The notes beneath the pieces are model-generated. The model was not told the DNA's origin. It worked only from the letters and a program-made list of their open reading frames with translations, and made no database searches. A program made the translations under genes and the position numbers. Below, one piece after another: positions 1,577-9,710 of a stretch of 37,332 nt of DNA. Within the stretch, counting starts at the first letter, position 1; each line of letters begins with the position of its first letter. This DNA is from a virus, in the IMG/VR virus record IMGVR_UViG_3300025669_000931, positions 1 through 37,332 of that record; one strand, 5' to 3'.

Positions 1577-2827
1577 TTATAAAATTCCCATTTCCTTCAT
1601 CATTTTAACAGCAATTCGATATTCAAAAAGGCTGTCCAATCCACAATAAATTTGCAACTTTTCAAGCCCGCCCGGTAACTTTATCAATTCATCAATCTGG
1701 TTCAAATCATTACTATGTGGTGCAATCAAATAGGGATGGACTTCTTCATCATATCCAGCAATCCCATGATGTCGATAATTCTGAAATTTCAATCCTGTAA
1801 TTCCAGTTCTATTGTCTTCCACATGACTACCAAGCATCGGATCGAACACCCATGGGAAAATATCATATCCAAGTTTGACTTTTGTCCACGCGTGTTCAAA
1901 TTTCATGTTCCAGGCCGTTTTCCCAATTTCAGGGTTCTGATAAATAGCTTTCAGCATTTTCAAAAGCCGTAGACTCTTTGGTTTCTGGAATACGATTGCT
2001 CGGTTTGGAGTATCACATAATGAAATAATCCTAAGTCTCTGTTCCTTTGAATGGGGTTTCAATCCAGTTGTTTCAAAATCAGTTGCTACAATATTTGGAA
2101 GATCATTCCCGATCTGGCCCATGTTCATACTCAACAATGAATCATGAATGTCTTTTGGATTGGAAAGGATCTGTACTTGACTTTCAAAATCCTCTTTTTG
2201 TGGTAATGCTTTTTTCCACATTTGTAGTGCTTGTTTCAAATCCTGTTTCCATATCGTTTCAATTTCTTGTTCAGATTGATCGATATAAGATGGATGGAAG
2301 GTCGGGCATACCCAAGCATTATAAGTTTGATCTGGGATACTCCATCCCCGCCATTTTGCAATCCCTCCCAATCCACTTTTCCAGACATTCCCGATTATGG
2401 ATTGAATGGAAGTAGCTCCGAGTAGAATAATTACCCTTGGGTTTCGTTCATAAATCACTTTTGATACTTTTCGTTTACAACACGCAATTTCATGATCTGT
2501 GGGTTTTCGATCTCTTCCATTTTCATCCAAGGGCCGACAACCAATTGCATTGATATTCAAGCAATCCTCGAAAAGATCAATACCTAATTTCTGATAAGTC
2601 CTTTGTAGAAGTTTGCCGGTTTTCCCTTGCCACGGTTTTCCTTTTCTATCATCCCATTCTCCAGGAGCATTCCCGATATTCAAAATCCGTTTACGGAAAT
2701 TGCCAAATGGTTTCATCCGCGGGGTATTGATATTTTTGTATAATCCGCAGGTTTGGCAGGTTTGACCCTTGACTCCGGACATACTCATATTTGCTTTGTC
2801 AATCTCGGCTTTGGAAAAGAAATCCAT
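1577..2827 (-). CDS. Uracil-DNA glycosylase fused to DnaQ-like 3'-5' exonuclease
   Basis: Two domains are visible in one 416-residue protein. Residues about 20-205 look like a family 4/5 uracil-DNA glycosylase, with GNAPGEWDD near 52-60, FHPSY at 177-181, and cysteines C24, C27, C97 and C116/C117 spaced as in the iron-sulfur cluster ligands of that family. Residues about 245-416 look like a proofreading exonuclease, with DFETTG (D250, E252), N-M-K-F-E-H and a terminal Y-C-G-L-D motif. The glycosylase would remove uracil. The exonuclease would proofread for the neighbouring family-A polymerase, which lacks that domain. A GAGGAG ribosome site overlaps the end of the upstream clamp gene, so the two are coupled. 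Confidence 0.88.
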   Translation of the reverse strand: MDFFSKAEIDKANMSMSGVKGQTCQTCGLYKNINTPRMKPFGNFRKRILNIGNAPGEWDDRKGKPWQGKTGKLLQRTYQKLGIDLFEDCLNINAIGCRPLDENGRDRKPTDHEIACCKRKVSKVIYERNPRVIILLGATSIQSIIGNVWKSGLGGIAKWRGWSIPDQTYNAWVCPTFHPSYIDQSEQEIETIWKQDLKQALQMWKKALPQKEDFESQVQILSNPKDIHDSLLSMNMGQIGNDLPNIVATDFETTGLKPHSKEQRLRIISLCDTPNRAIVFQKPKSLRLLKMLKAIYQNPEIGKTAWNMKFEHAWTKVKLGYDIFPWVFDPMLGSHVEDNRTGITGLKFQNYRHHGIAGYDEEVHPYLIAPHSNDLNQIDELIKLPGGLEKLQIYCGLDSLFEYRIAVKMMKEMGIL

Positions 2828-2828
2828 G

Positions 2829-3851
2829 TTACTCCTCAGATTTGATATTTTCCAAAGCTGTCAGATAGGTCCAGTTTTCACCCTCGAATTTCAGGACTCG
2901 TTCACTTTTGATCGCTGTGCTTGATGTGTCCAAGATATGCATAAGAAAAGATGGGACAACTCGGAAAGTCATATCTGCATCTTTGTAATCACATTTCACG
3001 GATTCGGTAAACCAGTCTGTTCCACTTTCACATTGAATCGTCAATTTGTCTTTGGAAAATGCAAGTTCAATCCATTCGTCTTCGGTGTGATCTGCTTTGG
3101 AAAATACTTGCGCACGCTGGATAATTTCCTTTATCCCTTTCGGGAACGTGACCTGCACACCATCACATTTGTAGAGTTCGGATGTATCAATGAATTTCCC
3201 TTCAAATGATCGGCACGAAATAATGGTATCTTCTTTAGTTCTGAAATGAACCCAACCTTTACCCCTGGCAACTTCAATCACTTTGTATTTGACTAATTCC
3301 CTTGCGGTACTTCCTGGTAAAAGAAAACCGGGAATGGGCAGGGTTTCAATTTGATACAAGGCAAGGCGGGATCTGTTTGTGGCTTCGATCCTTCCGTCCT
3401 TTGGGATATTCACGCAGGTAAGAATCGGGGATGTCATATCAGAGCTGCAATTTGGGAAAGTGAATTTCAAAGCATCACGGAAATTATCCGGTAAAGTTTT
3501 CCATTTCCCTTTGGTCCCAATTTCTTCATCCAGGGGAAGCCGGATTTCACTTTGAACAGCAAGTCCTGCTTTGGCTGATCCAGATACCAACTTGATAACA
3601 CCATCCTTGATTTGAATTCCGATTTCCTTTGTACTGCTTTTGGAAAGGAAACCATACAATTTTTCCGCTTTCACGGCTCCCGTCAATTTCATATCCGGGA
3701 CGGGATGGCTGATGCTGGTTTCATCGTTGTAAGTGACTACCCGGTTTTCGATGAATGCAAAGGAGGTCGATTGTTCTATCATTTCCTTTGTGGCAAGCGC
3801 GGGCTTGACGATTTCAAGAGCTTTCTGCAATTCTGCTTTGTTGATTTTCAT
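2829..3851 (-). CDS. Sliding-clamp-like protein (DNA polymerase III beta-like)
   Basis: This 340-residue protein starts MKINKAELQKALEIVKPAL, which resembles the first helix of DnaN-type clamps. Its alternating strand pattern and three-part layout fit a beta clamp, and its length is close to the usual 360-370. It would encircle DNA and tether the phage polymerase. Similarity is weak, and the call rests mainly on the N-terminus, the length and the replication context. The start at 3851 has AAGGAG seven bases upstream. Its first 38 bases overlap the end of the preceding short ORF in another frame. It ends one base before the glycosylase-exonuclease start. Confidence 0.62.
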   Translation of the reverse strand: MKINKAELQKALEIVKPALATKEMIEQSTSFAFIENRVVTYNDETSISHPVPDMKLTGAVKAEKLYGFLSKSSTKEIGIQIKDGVIKLVSGSAKAGLAVQSEIRLPLDEEIGTKGKWKTLPDNFRDALKFTFPNCSSDMTSPILTCVNIPKDGRIEATNRSRLALYQIETLPIPGFLLPGSTARELVKYKVIEVARGKGWVHFRTKEDTIISCRSFEGKFIDTSELYKCDGVQVTFPKGIKEIIQRAQVFSKADHTEDEWIELAFSKDKLTIQCESGTDWFTESVKCDYKDADMTFRVVPSFLMHILDTSSTAIKSERVLKFEGENWTYLTALENIKSEE

Positions 3852-4062
3852 GGTTAGACTCCTTGATTAGAATGTTGAAAAGGTTCTGACACTTGAAGGC
3901 GTTTGTTTTTACTTCATGATAACTCAGAAGTCGGTTTGCAATATCGTATTGCTCCCCTGGTTCCTTTGTCTCTTTTGCTTTAAAACTGGCAAGGTAAATT
4001 CTCATTTGGATTGAACACTCATTTTCCGTTCCAGGGGCGCTCGACGCTAGATAAATTTTCAT
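3814..4062 (-). CDS. Short MKIYLA-family protein with two in-frame start motifs
   Basis: This 82-residue ORF belongs to the repeated N-terminal family described in the findings. It contains two starts in frame: MKIYLASS at 4062 and, 19 codons on, MRIYLASF at 4005. The second is followed by E-P-G-E-Q-Y-D-I-A, then RLLSYHEV and a tail with F-N-I-L-I-K-E-S-N-H-E-N that resembles the tail of the copy at 5711-5911. The first start may be the remnant of another copy fused by deletion. Its ribosome site is weak (AGG, then TCAAA). The 3' end overlaps the clamp gene by 38 bases in another frame. Its function is unknown. Confidence 0.55.
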   Translation of the reverse strand: MKIYLASSAPGTENECSIQMRIYLASFKAKETKEPGEQYDIANRLLSYHEVKTNAFKCQNLFNILIKESNHENQQSRIAESS

Positions 4063-4214
4063 TTTGACCTGTTTCTGAATAGTGTTTTAATTGATTACTC
4101 TCTTTTTCTTCCTTGTGATGCCAGAAACTTAACAATCGATATTTTGATTTGGCTTTGGTTAAACTTTTGACCTTGCGTAGATTCCAGAAGCCAAGTTGAT
4201 AAATAGATTTTCAA
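4019..4214 (-). pseudogene. Frame-broken copy of the MKIYLA-family ORF
   Basis: A TTG at 4214 with AAGGA seven bases upstream opens a frame reading LKIYLSTW, which stops at 4095 after 39 codons. The family's second motif, YRLLSFWHHKEE, is present in the next frame (+1) over the same DNA, and that frame stays open to a stop at 4019. Reading through one frame change near an AAAA run (about 4145) would give a product of family length. The simplest explanation is a decayed copy. Programmed frameshifting or a sequencing error are alternatives. The 39-residue frame-0 product (4095-4214) could also be translated as is. Confidence 0.5.
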
Positions 4215-4215
4215 A

Positions 4216-4731
4216 TCAATTTCCTTCTTGTAATAATACATTTGGTAAATCTTGAATATATTTTTTGAGCCTATTGGAAAGAAAAAACCATTCACTATGA
4301 GAATCTATTCGTTCCTTTTTAAATTTATGATGCAAGAAATATTCTACTCCTTTATCTGGACAAGGCTTTATCGCTATTACCCGTAATTTATTTGGATTTC
4401 CAGTTTGTAATTGCTTTTTTCTGTCCTGTGGGTTTTGTGCCCATCCAATTTTGACTTGTCTTTCATTCCCATTTCGAATGAAATACACATATCCGCTTCG
4501 CTCCATTTCTTCATATCTTTTATTCTCCCATTCATCTGGATCTTTCATTCCAGAAATTTCTATAAGTTTATCGAATGCATTCTTGATAAACTTTGATTTA
4601 CCGGCAACATTATCAAAATAGTTAAAAGTCAACCGATGAGTCTTTTTTTGCCTCTTCACCAATTTATAGTTAATAAGAATTGGTTCGTAACCACTTGTAC
4701 AAAGTGAAGGCTCTTTAAAGTAAATTTTCAT
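4216..4731 (-). CDS. GIY-YIG nuclease-like protein (T5orf172/MUG113 type) with MKIYF N-terminus
   Basis: The C-terminal half carries a T5orf172-like GIY-YIG fold: YVYFIRNG near residue 85, V-K-I-G-W-A, a Q-T-G-N-P segment, and a late H-H-K-F-K-K-E-R followed by S-E-W-F. Proteins of this type are nucleases or phage proteins of unknown role. The first 40 residues are not part of that fold. They start MKIYFKEP and contain THRLTFNYFD at about 32-41, matching the N-terminal module of the neighbouring ORFs. I chose the ATG at 4731 because it overlaps the dpdA stop as ATGA and begins with the shared motif. The open frame extends further upstream into dpdA. Confidence 0.72.
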   Translation of the reverse strand: MKIYFKEPSLCTSGYEPILINYKLVKRQKKTHRLTFNYFDNVAGKSKFIKNAFDKLIEISGMKDPDEWENKRYEEMERSGYVYFIRNGNERQVKIGWAQNPQDRKKQLQTGNPNKLRVIAIKPCPDKGVEYFLHHKFKKERIDSHSEWFFLSNRLKKYIQDLPNVLLQEGN

Positions 4732-5750
4732 AGCAGTTGCCCAATGGTATTCAATGGTTTGTACAGCCAGGGCCATTCCGGCATGGAGTCTTCCAAATCT
4801 TTAAAATAGATAACATTCAGCTCATCCCTCTGCTGATAGATATTACATAAGCCGGGTTCAATAATGGTTTCAACTTCCCTTTTCCCATCACAAGCTTTCC
4901 CGAACCAGCGTTCCGTATCTTTCAATTCGTAACTATCCGATTCAGTATGAAACTCTGATTCCCCGACCTGATATCCCTTATGTTTGAAATAATCCAAGAC
5001 GATTCGTTGCTTGCCTTTGGAAAGTGTTGAGATATGTTTGCCCGCTTCCTTCTTTGATGGGGATCTGTCGGACACTTGAATTTTCCAACTGTTTGCATCA
5101 TAGAACCATTTCCCTTGAGCATACCGGGGAACATAAACCCCACCTAACCGCCCGGTCAAAACCCATGATGTCGAATCCACGGAATACCAGGGATACCGGA
5201 GCATTAATTTCAAGGAAGTCATTCCGAATCCGTGGACTTTGATTTTAGGCATTCCAGAAGGGTCACAGATATACTCTGAAAAGCAACGGTCAAGCCAAGG
5301 TATTAGGACTACACTCGACGATCCCACCATAGCCCCTAGACTGATATATTCATAGGTGTTACAATAGCGTTTCAGGTATTTAAAAGGTTCATGAAGATGG
5401 AAAACTGGCAAGGGATTCAAACCAGCTTTTTCCATTATCTTTTGGTTCTGATAAGTTCGCCGGGCGCTATCCTTGTTTTTCCCAATTACATCCAGATTGG
5501 CATAAACAGAAATGGCATCCTTGTGTTCTTTGATAAATGAAATATATTCCTGAATATCAATTTTAATACCTTGAGTGAATGCTGAGAATGCTCCGGAGTC
5601 AAGAAATAGGTCTATTTTGTGTTCCATTGTCAGTTTTCCTTTTGTAACCATTAAATGATAGTACGAATGTAATCGTTTTGGATTGAGCAGATTTATAATC
5701 TCTCTCTCTCTTACAATCCCCCGGCCTTCCTCCGCCCGGCACTCCTGCAA
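4728..5750 (-). CDS. dpdA: DpdA-like tRNA-guanine-transglycosylase homologue (7-deazaguanine into DNA)
   Basis: This 340-residue protein resembles the phage DpdA group of TGT-like enzymes, which exchange guanine in DNA for a 7-deazaguanine such as preQ0. Landmarks from the TTG at 5750 are LDSGAFSAFTQG at about 50-61, VYANLDVIG near 82-90, S-L-G-A-M-V near 137, K-V-H-G-F-G near 171, and VDSTSW at 191-196. The aspartates in LDSGAF and VDSTSW are candidate catalytic residues. The TTG has no good ribosome site. An ATG at 5763 reads MKIWFAG behind AAAGGAAC but is out of frame, so the natural N-terminus is uncertain (see findings). It lies directly downstream of the preQ0 genes and overlaps its neighbours. 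Confidence 0.8.
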   Translation of the reverse strand: MQECRAEEGRGIVREREIINLLNPKRLHSYYHLMVTKGKLTMEHKIDLFLDSGAFSAFTQGIKIDIQEYISFIKEHKDAISVYANLDVIGKNKDSARRTYQNQKIMEKAGLNPLPVFHLHEPFKYLKRYCNTYEYISLGAMVGSSSVVLIPWLDRCFSEYICDPSGMPKIKVHGFGMTSLKLMLRYPWYSVDSTSWVLTGRLGGVYVPRYAQGKWFYDANSWKIQVSDRSPSKKEAGKHISTLSKGKQRIVLDYFKHKGYQVGESEFHTESDSYELKDTERWFGKACDGKREVETIIEPGLCNIYQQRDELNVIYFKDLEDSMPEWPWLYKPLNTIGQLL

Positions 5751-5911
5751 ACCAGATTTTCATTTTGTTCCTTTATGTAATGAAAAGAGTCTTTCACCGC
5801 AAATTGTTCCTGTTGAATATCCCAGAATGAAAGTAACCGATGTTGATAAAATTCAATTAGCTGTCTCTCTCTCTCTACGACCCCAAGCGTTCCGGCTAAA
5901 TAAATTTTCAT
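5711..5911 (-). CDS. Short MKIYLA-family protein, 66 residues
   Basis: It starts MKIYLAGT, continues with V-E-R-E-R-Q-L-I-E-F coded largely by a (GA)6 run, and has HRLLSFWDI at residues 24-32. It then runs into F-H-Y-I-K-E-Q-N-E-N and a basic glycine-rich end. The ATG at 5911 overlaps the upstream ORF as ATGA. Its 3' end overlaps the start region of dpdA by about 50 bases in a different frame. The first half aligns by eye with the frame-corrected N-terminus of the transglycosylase. The function is unknown. It may be a stand-alone copy of that N-terminal module. Confidence 0.62.
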   Translation of the reverse strand: MKIYLAGTLGVVERERQLIEFYQHRLLSFWDIQQEQFAVKDSFHYIKEQNENLVCRSAGRRKAGGL

Positions 5912-6078
5912 GTTTTTTGAATCTCTTTTTTTAAGTTAATGATTTGGAAAATATTATTACCGGCGTATGTATCCCAAAATGATACCAATCTTTTGTAGTC
6001 TTTGAGTTTAAAAAATAACTCTCTCTCTCTTCCTGGAACATTCATAACGGAAAACCCGCTAGCTAAATAGATTTTCAT
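5908..6078 (-). CDS. Short MKIYLA-family protein, 56 residues
   Basis: I translated this ORF directly. It starts MKIYLASG, has V-P-G-R-E-R-E-L coded across an (AG)6 run, and YKRLVSFWDTYAGNN at residues 28-42, ending in a lysine-rich tail. The start at 6078 overlaps the folE stop, and its stop overlaps the next copy's ATG (ATGA at both ends). It is therefore locked into translation between folE and the transglycosylase. No ribosome site of its own is needed if it is coupled. The function is unknown, and it is the first of the repeated short ORFs in transcription order. Confidence 0.6.
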   Translation of the reverse strand: MKIYLASGFSVMNVPGRERELFFKLKDYKRLVSFWDTYAGNNIFQIINLKKEIQKT

Positions 6079-6941
6079 CTCGAAATTAACATCAGTTCGT
6101 TACGGGCGGCAATCCCCATGTGGCTATTTTCTAGGAAAACCCCTTTCAGACTATTATACCCCATTACGGAATGTTGCTTTTTGACTCCCCGGCAGGCAAT
6201 ACACATATGCTTGGCTTCGATCATACATGCTGCTCCTAGAGGCTTTAAATGGGTCATGATAGCTTCTGTGACTTGTTCGGCAATCCTTTCCTGCATCTGG
6301 AGTCGTTTGGCAAAGACATCCACCAACCTAGCCATTTTAGAGGCCCCGAGAACTGGACCATCTGGAATATAAGCAACCAGGGCTTTCCCGTAAAAAGGAA
6401 GCCAATGGTGCTCACAAGTGCTGAAAAATTCAATATCCTTCAGATAAACCAACCCACCAAACTTTTGATTTTCATCATCAAATGAAGTGAAGAAATCAGC
6501 AGGGTTTTGTTTATACCCGGAGAAGGTTTCTTGCCAGGCTTTGACCATTCGTTTTGGAGTATCTACAATCCCGGATCGTTTTGGATCTTCTCCAATGAAT
6601 TGGAGCTGCCGGACGATATTCTGTTCAATGGTATCTTCCCCATTTGGGTGATCCGCTTCCCACGGGAAAACAATCCATTCATTTTGATAGTGTTTGGTTT
6701 TGTCAAAGAGGGCAACGAAAGGAGTTTGCGAGAACTTGTCTTTGTAGAATTGCTCAGTCCATCCGGAGTCTTTGACATCATCCAAGAACAGGGTTGCTTT
6801 CGATGGATCATGCGTGGTCTTGGCATGTTTTAGAAATCCAGCAACGATCATTCCACCTTTTGGAATTCCATAAATTGTGGTTCCCATATTATCCACTAAA
6901 TCCAGTTCTTTAAATACTGTATCCCATGTTATGTTTATCAT
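6075..6941 (-). CDS. folE: Phosphoribosyltransferase-like domain fused to GTP cyclohydrolase I
   Basis: The C-terminal domain (about 115-288) is GTP cyclohydrolase I, which converts GTP to dihydroneopterin triphosphate, the first step to preQ0. The zinc ligands are visible as C176 and H179 in CEHH, and C247 in HMCIACRG. The N-terminal domain (1-100) looks like a phosphoribosyltransferase, with IYGIPKGGM near 23-31 and the PRPP-type loop TLFLDDVKDSG near 50-60. I chose MINITW at 6941, one base after queC stops. The open frame extends further but would run into queC. It is probably cotranslated with queC upstream and the short ORF downstream. The role of the fused domain is unclear. Confidence 0.9.
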   Translation of the reverse strand: MINITWDTVFKELDLVDNMGTTIYGIPKGGMIVAGFLKHAKTTHDPSKATLFLDDVKDSGWTEQFYKDKFSQTPFVALFDKTKHYQNEWIVFPWEADHPNGEDTIEQNIVRQLQFIGEDPKRSGIVDTPKRMVKAWQETFSGYKQNPADFFTSFDDENQKFGGLVYLKDIEFFSTCEHHWLPFYGKALVAYIPDGPVLGASKMARLVDVFAKRLQMQERIAEQVTEAIMTHLKPLGAACMIEAKHMCIACRGVKKQHSVMGYNSLKGVFLENSHMGIAARNELMLISR

Positions 6942-6942
6942 T

Positions 6943-7629
6943 TCATACCTCATATTGAATTGGGTCATAACAACAAATTGTGGCAAATGCTTCCAATCTT
7001 TCTCGGCACGATCCACATTTCCCGCAACTTAATTCCTGATCCTTATAACAGGTCCGAGTTAATTGATATGGGACAATTGGGTTGTATTTATATCCAAGTT
7101 CAAGGATCTTTGCTTTGTCAAAAAAAAGGAAAGGGGTAGCAAGGTGAACCCGTTTATCAGATGAATGATGAAGAGCCCATCTGGTAGCATAAATGAATTC
7201 AGGGCGGCAATCTGGATAGATATGATGATCTCCGGAATGCACGCCAAGTGAAATAGTTTCGATGTTAAGGGATTCCGCCAAACCGGCCATGATTGAAATG
7301 AAAATCAAATTCCGGCCAGGGACAACTGTTTGTTTCATGTTTTCGTCTTCGTAATTCCCTTCCGGGATCGGACCTCCTGTTTGAAGTAATGCAGATTTAA
7401 AAAGAGACATGACGGCAGATAAATCAAATTGATGTGTAATTACGACAGGCCCGGGAACTTGATTATAATATTGGATTAATTCTTTTGCGGCCTGCATTTC
7501 CCATTTTGCGTGTTTTGATCCATAATCAAAAAGACAGCAATGGATTTCTTGTGTGCTACTCTCCGAGAACAATTTTCCGAGAAGAGTAGCACTGTCCATC
7601 CCGCCAGACAGTGCTACAATATGTTTCAT
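6943..7629 (-). CDS. queC: 7-cyano-7-deazaguanine (preQ0) synthase QueC
   Basis: QueC converts 7-carboxy-7-deazaguanine to preQ0 using ATP and ammonia. The ATP-pyrophosphatase loop SGGMDS is at residues 8-13. A zinc-binding cluster of four cysteines, C-x7-CGKCGSC, is near the end. The length of 228 residues is normal for QueC. The ATG at 7629 has AAGGAG upstream. The gene is followed after one base by the folE fusion and preceded by an unknown 240-residue gene, which separates it from queE. It supplies the last step of the preQ0 pathway. No queF was found in the window, so preQ0 rather than preQ1 is the expected end product. Confidence 0.94.
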   Translation of the reverse strand: MKHIVALSGGMDSATLLGKLFSESSTQEIHCCLFDYGSKHAKWEMQAAKELIQYYNQVPGPVVITHQFDLSAVMSLFKSALLQTGGPIPEGNYEDENMKQTVVPGRNLIFISIMAGLAESLNIETISLGVHSGDHHIYPDCRPEFIYATRWALHHSSDKRVHLATPFLFFDKAKILELGYKYNPIVPYQLTRTCYKDQELSCGKCGSCRERLEAFATICCYDPIQYEV

Positions 7630-7640
7630 TGTCCCTCTCC

Positions 7641-8363
7641 TTATTCGTCCTTGAAATAGTAACCGGAATCAGTTTTGCTGACTTTGAATTTTTCCTTGGA
7701 AATGCGGGAGGGGATTTGAACACCGATGGTATTTTTCATGGATTTCTCTTCTCGGTCCGGGAATTCCCTTTTCAAAATTTCTAAGATTTCTTCTTTTTTG
7801 ATCCCATCTTTTCCGGCATTCTCGATACATTCCACGATGGTTTTGATGATACCCTTGCCTTTTGGTTTGGTCGAGGCCTTGGTTTTCTTTGTCGCAGCCT
7901 TCGCAGGCGCTTCCACACCCAATGCCGCAAACATATCCACCTTCAACAATTTCGGCCCGGTTAGTCCCTTGTATTCATCCAGCTTGGATACCAGGTCCGG
8001 GAAGAATTCTGAATGCTCACCGACGATACCTTTTAGGGTGGCGAGCTTGCCGGTGCCGTTGATCAGGGCAGTCATATCAACCGGTTGTTCTTCGGTTGAA
8101 GTTTCATGTGTTTCCGGCGGGTCCGCAGTCTCTTCTTTATTTTCTTCCGGTCCTTCCAAGGCGCCGATTTGGATCAGGGTTGCCGTCACTTCTTCTGGGA
8201 TTGCATCCTCCGGGGCAAGCATTCCAGCGGCTTCCGTCAATTTGACTTTCAGCTCTTTGACTTTCCCCTTTCCATCAATCGGGGGTTCCAGGCCCAGCAG
8301 GTCATTCAGGGTCTTGGCGCATGCACTCAGTTCACTTCTTTTCGGTTCTTTCTTGTCTGCCAT
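7641..8363 (-). CDS. Unknown 240-residue protein with C-terminal winged-helix-like domain
   Basis: I do not recognise this protein. It has an acidic middle (about 70-95, rich in E, P and T), a lysine/alanine-rich linker near 152-170, and a C-terminal block of about 70 residues. In that block a helix G-I-K-K-E-E-I-L-E-I-L-K is followed by I-P-S-R-I-S and a final G-Y-Y-F strand, the look of a winged helix. The start at 8363 has AAGGAG behind it. It sits inside the preQ0 cluster between queE and queC and has its own promoter-like site and long leader. A DNA-binding or regulatory role for the modification genes is possible, but this is inference. Confidence 0.75.
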   Translation of the reverse strand: MADKKEPKRSELSACAKTLNDLLGLEPPIDGKGKVKELKVKLTEAAGMLAPEDAIPEEVTATLIQIGALEGPEENKEETADPPETHETSTEEQPVDMTALINGTGKLATLKGIVGEHSEFFPDLVSKLDEYKGLTGPKLLKVDMFAALGVEAPAKAATKKTKASTKPKGKGIIKTIVECIENAGKDGIKKEEILEILKREFPDREEKSMKNTIGVQIPSRISKEKFKVSKTDSGYYFKDE

Positions 8364-8589: not shown

Positions 8590-9300
8590 TCAAGGCAATC
8601 CAAGGATCTTATGAATCTGTACTGAAATCAAAGTGTTGTTTGAAATTTTCCGATTAATCATATTTAACTGTTCCCGCAAGAATCCCAGCATTCGAGGAAG
8701 TGGCATATTCCGTCCCGCATTCAATGGACTAAAAACATATCGGGGTCTTTGTTTAATTTCAACTTTATCTAAACCCATTTCTAAATTATTAATGAAATTA
8801 AACGCCATTGTCAAATCCAGATTTGTTTCAAAAACAAATTTTAGATCAATTTTGATATTTTGAAGTAACAATTCCCCAAACCCACCCCGCGCTCGTATGA
8901 ATTCTTCAACTGTAATGGCAATTTGATCTGAACTTGGAAGTTTAACATCAGCCGAAAATCCAAGATTAGGTGCCTCTTGAATTAAAGCATGGGTGACTGT
9001 TCCGTTTGTTTCAATTTGGACAATGTGATTTGCTTTCAAAAGTTCCGAAATTAAGATTTCAATTTCAGGTTGCAGAAGCGGTTCTCCTCCAGTGATCAAA
9101 ATATGTTTGGTTTGGCAAAGAGAAAGGATTTCATTGATACTCATTTCAATTCCATTTTCCCACGGTTGAGATTCTGGAGAATCACACCAGTTACAATGCA
9201 AATTGCATCCTTGCGTTCTGATAAATGTACACCACATCCCTTGCGGAATTACGGGACCAGCTTCACCGCTGATACTTTCAAATACAGAATTGATTCTCAT
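8590..9300 (-). CDS. queE: 7-carboxy-7-deazaguanine synthase QueE (radical SAM)
   Basis: QueE rearranges 6-carboxytetrahydropterin to 7-carboxy-7-deazaguanine, the third step to preQ0. The radical-SAM cluster C-x3-C-x2-C is C32, C36 and C39 in GCNLHCNWCD. An ITGGEPLLQ motif for SAM binding follows near 70. The length of 236 residues is typical. I chose the ATG at 9300 (MRINSVF) because GGAGG stands eight bases upstream. Two other in-frame ATGs overlap the queD end and are too close to that site. It is cotranscribed with queD. Downstream is a gap with a promoter-like motif before the next gene. Confidence 0.94.
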   Translation of the reverse strand: MRINSVFESISGEAGPVIPQGMWCTFIRTQGCNLHCNWCDSPESQPWENGIEMSINEILSLCQTKHILITGGEPLLQPEIEILISELLKANHIVQIETNGTVTHALIQEAPNLGFSADVKLPSSDQIAITVEEFIRARGGFGELLLQNIKIDLKFVFETNLDLTMAFNFINNLEMGLDKVEIKQRPRYVFSPLNAGRNMPLPRMLGFLREQLNMINRKISNNTLISVQIHKILGLP

Positions 9301-9302
9301 TT

Positions 9303-9710
9303 TCATGCCCTCCATTCGGCGTAACTGTTTGCGGTTTCATACAGGCGGATGAATGATAAATTTCTGAGTCTGGTGAATTCTGATTCTAAAGGGCCGTGTT
9401 CATCAAAAACATAATAATTGACAAGTCGATCTCGTATCCATTCGATCATATTCTCAGCCGTAGGCATGAAGTATGGAAAACCATACGTGCTGACTTTGTT
9501 TAAATAAGAATGATCTAATAAATCGACAATCGGCTGTACCATTTTTTTGAGTGTTTTGAAATCAATTATCATTCCAGTTTCGGGATTAATTTCACCGAAC
9601 ACCCCGACAAGCAACCGATAAGAATGCCCATGGAGATTTGCGCACGCTCCTTTATATCCAGGCAAATAATGTGCCGCTTCGAATGAAAATTCTTTGACGA
9701 CTGTTATCAT
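9303..9710 (-). CDS. queD: 6-carboxy-5,6,7,8-tetrahydropterin synthase QueD
   Basis: QueD converts dihydroneopterin triphosphate to 6-carboxytetrahydropterin. The zinc-binding histidines H14, H27 and H29 and the catalytic C23 are seen in FEAAHYLPG and CANLHGHS. A later LDHSYLN segment also fits the family. Its 135 residues are normal. The ATG at 9710 has AAAGGAG at good spacing. The stop falls within the ribosome site region of queE, so the two are coupled. It stands first of the preQ0 genes in transcription order. Confidence 0.95.
   Translation of the reverse strand: MITVVKEFSFEAAHYLPGYKGACANLHGHSYRLLVGVFGEINPETGMIIDFKTLKKMVQPIVDLLDHSYLNKVSTYGFPYFMPTAENMIEWIRDRLVNYYVFDEHGPLESEFTRLRNLSFIRLYETANSYAEWRA

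Follow-up and report, generated by a model that had tools for sequence, protein, structure and literature searches.

The locus described here raises the question of why the transglycosylase gene of a phage should open in one reading frame and continue in another. The window, by which we mean the whole stretch of DNA that was analysed (37,332 nucleotides [nt]), belongs to a tailed phage, because terminase and portal genes are present. On its minus strand, an ATG at position 5763 that is preceded by a ribosome site (AAAGGA) opens MKIWFAGVPGGGRPGDCKRERD... and a frame of 54 amino acids (aa) that ends at a stop at 5599; this frame (5599-5763, minus strand; MKIWFAGVPGGGRPGDCKRER...) encodes the enzyme-fused N-terminal module, of type 4. 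The frame of the DpdA-like transglycosylase (4728-5750, minus strand; phrog_887, E = 1e-59), which includes the module's second half (RLHSYYHL), is offset by +1, and its first start codon is TTG 5750. A sequence-only reading had reported both the frame conflict and the ribosome site, as we found them, and had placed the break at either a (GA)6 or a G5 tract, with coordinates correct to within one base. We found that the two frames meet after the GA tract (13 nt, 5699-5711; CT on the plus strand). The other candidate, the G5 run (5718-5722; C5 on the plus strand), is not the break site, because related type-4 N-termini (i.e., those of contigs L032, L044, L025, L043, and L056) keep the ATG frame beyond its equivalent, up to C-[KR]-R-E, just like the N-terminus in the window. 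The spelling of RERE as AGAGAGAGAGAG has a probability of 0.0014 under the phage's own codon use, and two more GA tracts, of 12-13 nt, lie at the same position in both mini-genes just upstream of the enzyme start. The frame break in the window is not an isolated one and is unlikely to be an error.

The first ~40 residues of the enzyme belong to a family of mini-genes of 50-60 codons (MKIYLA...RLLSFW) that lie on both sides of the enzyme gene, an array of which the tract noted by the sequence-only reading, which did not see the array, is one of many such sites. The mini-genes are arranged in tandem, start with ATGAAAATYTAYTTRGC or alike, and carry the motif RLLSFW/Y ~25 codons on; about half of them have a G/C run or a (GA)n tract between two conserved halves. 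In the window, where all of the following features are on the minus strand, the array comprises W1 (5908-6078; type 1, SVMN, in frame, GA tract at 6019-6030), W2 (5714-5911; type 3-like, in frame, GA tract at 5864-5876), the enzyme N-terminus at 5763, W5 (4019-4214; type 5, TWLLE, TTG start at 4214, second half at +1 without a long tract), and W6 (3814-4062; in frame, with MRIYLAS... starting at 4005 after a type 7 fragment at 4062). A module-like start (MKIYF...RLTFNYF) at 4731 is, in addition, fused to a T5orf172/GIY-YIG-type domain (4216-4731; PF10544, E = 2e-10). Given this gene and an HNH-like reading frame between module and enzyme in L043 (354-576, plus strand), homing endonucleases may invade the array.

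The array is bordered upstream by FolE, i.e., GTP cyclohydrolase I (6075-7016; PF01227, E = 2e-58), and downstream by a sliding clamp (2829-3851; phrog_947, E = 2e-30); these and the other genes named in this paragraph are likewise on the minus strand. Together with FolE, genes for QueC (6943-7629; PF06508, E = 3e-54), a QueE-like radical SAM protein (8590-9315; phrog_2076, E = 2e-29), and a QueD-like protein (9303-9710; phrog_2389, E = 2.5e-17) place preQ0 synthesis beside the DpdA-like enzyme. FolE is extended at its N-terminus by ~120 residues that weakly match a phosphoribosyltransferase family, phrog_8995 (E = 3e-5). The gene at 7641-8363, between QueE and QueC, matched no Pfam or PHROG family below E 0.1; it is conserved at this position in many relatives and is a candidate for a new component of the 7-deazaguanine pathway.

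We scanned IMG/VR with an alignment of the enzyme body and with four mini-gene families; a scan with a single enzyme body had returned no relative, and neither an alignment of all module types, which was too varied, nor a 44-aa query, which was too short, was suited to scanning. Mini-genes were found in 36 other contigs, i.e., 35 viral ones from these scans and one (L066) from a genome scan. A tblastn search of 50,697 phage records with three mini-genes gave no convincing match. Wherever the flanks suffice, gene order is conserved as QueE-unknown-QueC-FolE-[mini-genes]-enzyme-[mini-genes]-clamp, and mini-gene types recur across phages, each with its own conserved tail. The sole hint of a host comes from L066 (MWCI01000084.1), a phage-like contig in a metagenome-assembled genome of a Spirochaetes bacterium, which carries the enzyme, four modules, and the clamp. 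L069 has two tandem DpdA-like genes (2638-4440, plus strand), the first apparently broken in several places and the second with a run of G at which its N-terminal module loses the frame.

Simple repeats are strongly concentrated in these genes. Mini-gene interiors make up 3% of the 312 kb covered, and they contain 47 of 65 long simple repeats (83-fold enrichment, p about 1e-56), while some of the other 18 sit in mini-genes that the scan pattern missed. By an automatic motif scan, uncorrected for shared ancestry, 119 mini-genes were counted in 34 contigs, 53 of them with a tract; 27 of these 53 were broken, compared with 6 of the 66 without a tract (60/66 intact; Fisher p = 4e-7). The offsets of the tract-bearing copies (26 in frame, 18 at +1, and 9 at +2) led us to reject the idea that all broken copies share the +1 offset. 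The in-frame share (26/53) is above one third (p = 0.02), and therefore the sampled phase is not random. GA and poly-G tracts substitute for each other at the same place, and (AT)n tracts take the place of GA or G/C runs in L064 (at 4430 and 5705), L029 (4680), L023 (2054), and L037 (4195). Even at its lowest threshold, Tandem Repeats Finder missed the GA tracts, whose length is insufficient to reach the required score.

Four closely related contigs (3300001041, 3300025010, 3300025011, and 3300001242), about 88-92% identical to one another (8-12% apart), allowed tracts to be compared in orthologous genes; a variable-gap DNA scan for further strains of this group returned only the four already known. 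Several alignments of QueC and of the clamp among them are free of gaps. The type-2 mini-gene has C9, C8, and C7 in three of the four, which corresponds to frames +1, 0, and +2, respectively. Likewise, the type-4 mini-gene is in frame with G9 in one contig and out of frame with G8 in two, and the tract of the enzyme itself is GA8 in two contigs and GA9 in another. Pooled over orthologous modules of seven types from this group, two of which lack a tract, dN/dS was 0.14 before the tract and 0.17 after it. Such low values indicate that both halves are kept as protein, though in many assembled copies the frame changes between them.

The linkage of breaks to repeats, the single-unit differences, the occurrence of all three frames, and the purifying selection make slipped-strand phase variation a better explanation than error, decay, or one programmed frameshift, and of the three options raised by the sequence-only reading, a switch by strand slippage is thus the best supported. 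We consider it probable that this is a phage-borne contingency array, in which the site in the window is one switch. In the mechanism we propose, a row of mini-genes resembling the N-terminal module of DpdA flanks, and is partly fused to, a dpdA-like gene; the simple repeats between mini-gene halves would change length by slipped-strand mispairing during replication, each change would shift the frame of the second half and thereby turn a module on or off, and switching would take place within one phage population. Three observations count against this model. All nine tract-bearing enzyme fusions are in the off phase, with a single offset among the five of type 4, a pattern that random switching by itself predicts poorly; the in-frame copies among the tract-bearing mini-genes exceed one third, as given above; and the second half of W5 has lost the frame although no long tract is present.

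The first of these observations bears on an alternative in which the halves of the enzyme-fused copies, if not of others, are joined at the repeat through programmed ribosomal frameshifting or slippage of the transcript. The nine fusions in question are those of the window, L006/L039, L032, L044, L069, L003, L004, L008, and L012, the tract being GA in all except L069, where it is a run of G; the +1 offset is constant among the type-4 members (i.e., the window, L039, L032, L044, and L069). Such recoding would also agree with the conservation of both halves as protein while out of frame. What speaks against it is the spread of offsets across the family, with type-2 orthologues in all three frames, the presence of both offsets among enzyme-fused copies within the close group (GA8 versus GA9), and the interchange of GA and poly-G at the same place. 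We therefore regard programmed joining as unlikely, and a single programmed frameshift, which the sequence-only reading had also offered, is disfavored by orthologous mini-genes in frames 0, +1, and +2.

A further alternative is that the module in the window is not used at all, the enzyme starting at an ATG of its own and the upstream module being a decaying gene fragment. The body was said to open only from a TTG without a ribosome site; TTG 5750 is indeed the first start codon of the frame, but it is not the sole one, since an in-frame ATG at 5627, preceded by the ribosome-site-like AAAAGGA (5637-5643, minus strand), begins MEHKIDLF (MEHKIDLFLDSGAF; 4728-5627, minus strand). Each of the 29 bodies checked has a Met a short way ahead of the LDSGAF motif, and a Shine-Dalgarno-like core accompanies it in 10 of the 29, versus 16 of 220 internal ATG codons (p = 1.5e-4). 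The distant homologues L015 and L017 begin at this place, and L028, L029, and L035 encode the module in a gene of its own, which overlaps the enzyme start. Comparison with relatives that lack the tract, a check of the kind that the sequence-only reading had proposed, gave a mixed answer, in that the module either is fused to the enzyme in frame, as in L056-L058, which have the same N-terminus without the GA tract, or stands apart from an enzyme that starts at the ATG. Nonsense codons in the in-frame modules of L034 (at 3004, after MKIYLA) and L025 (at 2977, mid-gene) show that inactivation by point mutation occurs too, and the window's own copy could be decaying. Decay, however, agrees poorly with the purifying selection that acts in the close group on the two halves alike, with the conservation of the N-terminus in distant relatives, and with the clustering of breaks at repeats rather than along the genes, and we judge it rather improbable that the window module is a decaying remnant. 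ATG 5627 is nevertheless probably used as the enzyme start in the window, to judge from the sequence features above. The conserved Met, the Shine-Dalgarno-like cores, and the separate modules indicate that the tract most likely switches the module and not the whole enzyme. Under slipped-strand switching, the enzyme-fused module of the window would be in the off phase, with the body probably still made from ATG 5627, and the tract probably acts on the N-terminal module.

Sequencing or assembly error at low-complexity tracts is very improbable. All the sequences are metagenome contigs, and some platforms tend to make errors in homopolymers; however, nine contigs (the window and 8 others), whose GA or G tracts vary in length, share an enzyme-fused start that loses its frame at one and the same point. 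Moreover, GA tracts (11-19 nt) fit easily within a read, the breaks are concentrated in one gene family, and neighboring genes are almost always intact. The only broken neighbor is the sliding clamp of L027 (3300025154; 2359-3344, plus strand), which is split into two overlapping frames and may reflect a sequence error.

The body of the enzyme is that of a phage DpdA-like protein, and 70% of it aligns with Seuratvirus DpdA at 42-44% identity; ordinary phage DpdA has a like piece fused before VFLDSGAF (MNVFMAA...LESYHYV). Because ordinary DpdA bears the same module fused to the body, the module, as judged from sequence comparison, most likely acts by altering DpdA. A structural model made for the fused relative L022 (i.e., not for the window protein) had the DpdA crystal structure 7ui4 as its best match (Z = 12.1, rmsd 4.0, 230 residues aligned), and matched TGTs with Z of about 11, which gives this relative a TGT-like barrel fold. 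In AlphaFold predictions with 17 and then 69 alignment rows, the N-terminal module (first 50 residues) was of low confidence both times. Sequence searches of solved structures gave no match, and hhalign to E. coli TGT produced a weak alignment from the DSGAF region onward only. In the TGT fold, two barrel strands come before the DSGG strand, and the module would, by this comparison, supply barrel strands 1 and 2. A bolder idea, which we hold to be doubtful, is that of a split combinatorial enzyme, in which a body without its first two barrel strands would be completed in trans by whichever mini-module is on, such that a lineage would randomly change the specificity of its DNA hypermodification.

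In bacterial phase-variable restriction-modification genes, repeats control a DNA-modifying activity. The window differs from these in that the repeats lie in many small modules, and not in one methyltransferase or specificity gene, and in that the enzyme concerned is the virus's own predicted base-exchange enzyme. More generally, the array resembles the slipped-strand contingency loci of Neisseria, Haemophilus, and Campylobacter (PMC2651432, PMC6321876), where repeats within genes have a unit that is not a multiple of three, frames differ among close relatives, and the genes are conserved as protein; unlike them, this putative array of switches is phage-borne and consists of many tiny tandem paralogues around one enzyme gene. 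Among phages, the DpdA of Seuratvirus or 9g-type phages (PMC6884629) is the closest counterpart that we describe here, being a member of the phrog_887 family with the same two N-terminal motifs before LDSGAF and with FolE before and the clamp after it, in the order found in the window (FolE-DpdA-clamp); it differs in that its module is fused in frame without repeats and that there is no mini-gene array. The words frameshift and phase variation are absent from the text of that paper, and in the open-access literature we found repeat-based phase variation described in bacteria, none in phage genomes, and no multi-gene switch array in a phage.

Phage DNA into which DpdA has inserted preQ0 or related bases is protected by these modifications from restriction (PMC6884629). 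Random on/off switching driven by repeats is well known in bacteria, and this virus probably switches parts of its DNA-modification machinery in the same random way in which some bacteria switch surface genes. If confirmed, this would mean that phages hedge their own DNA modification, a defense against host restriction.
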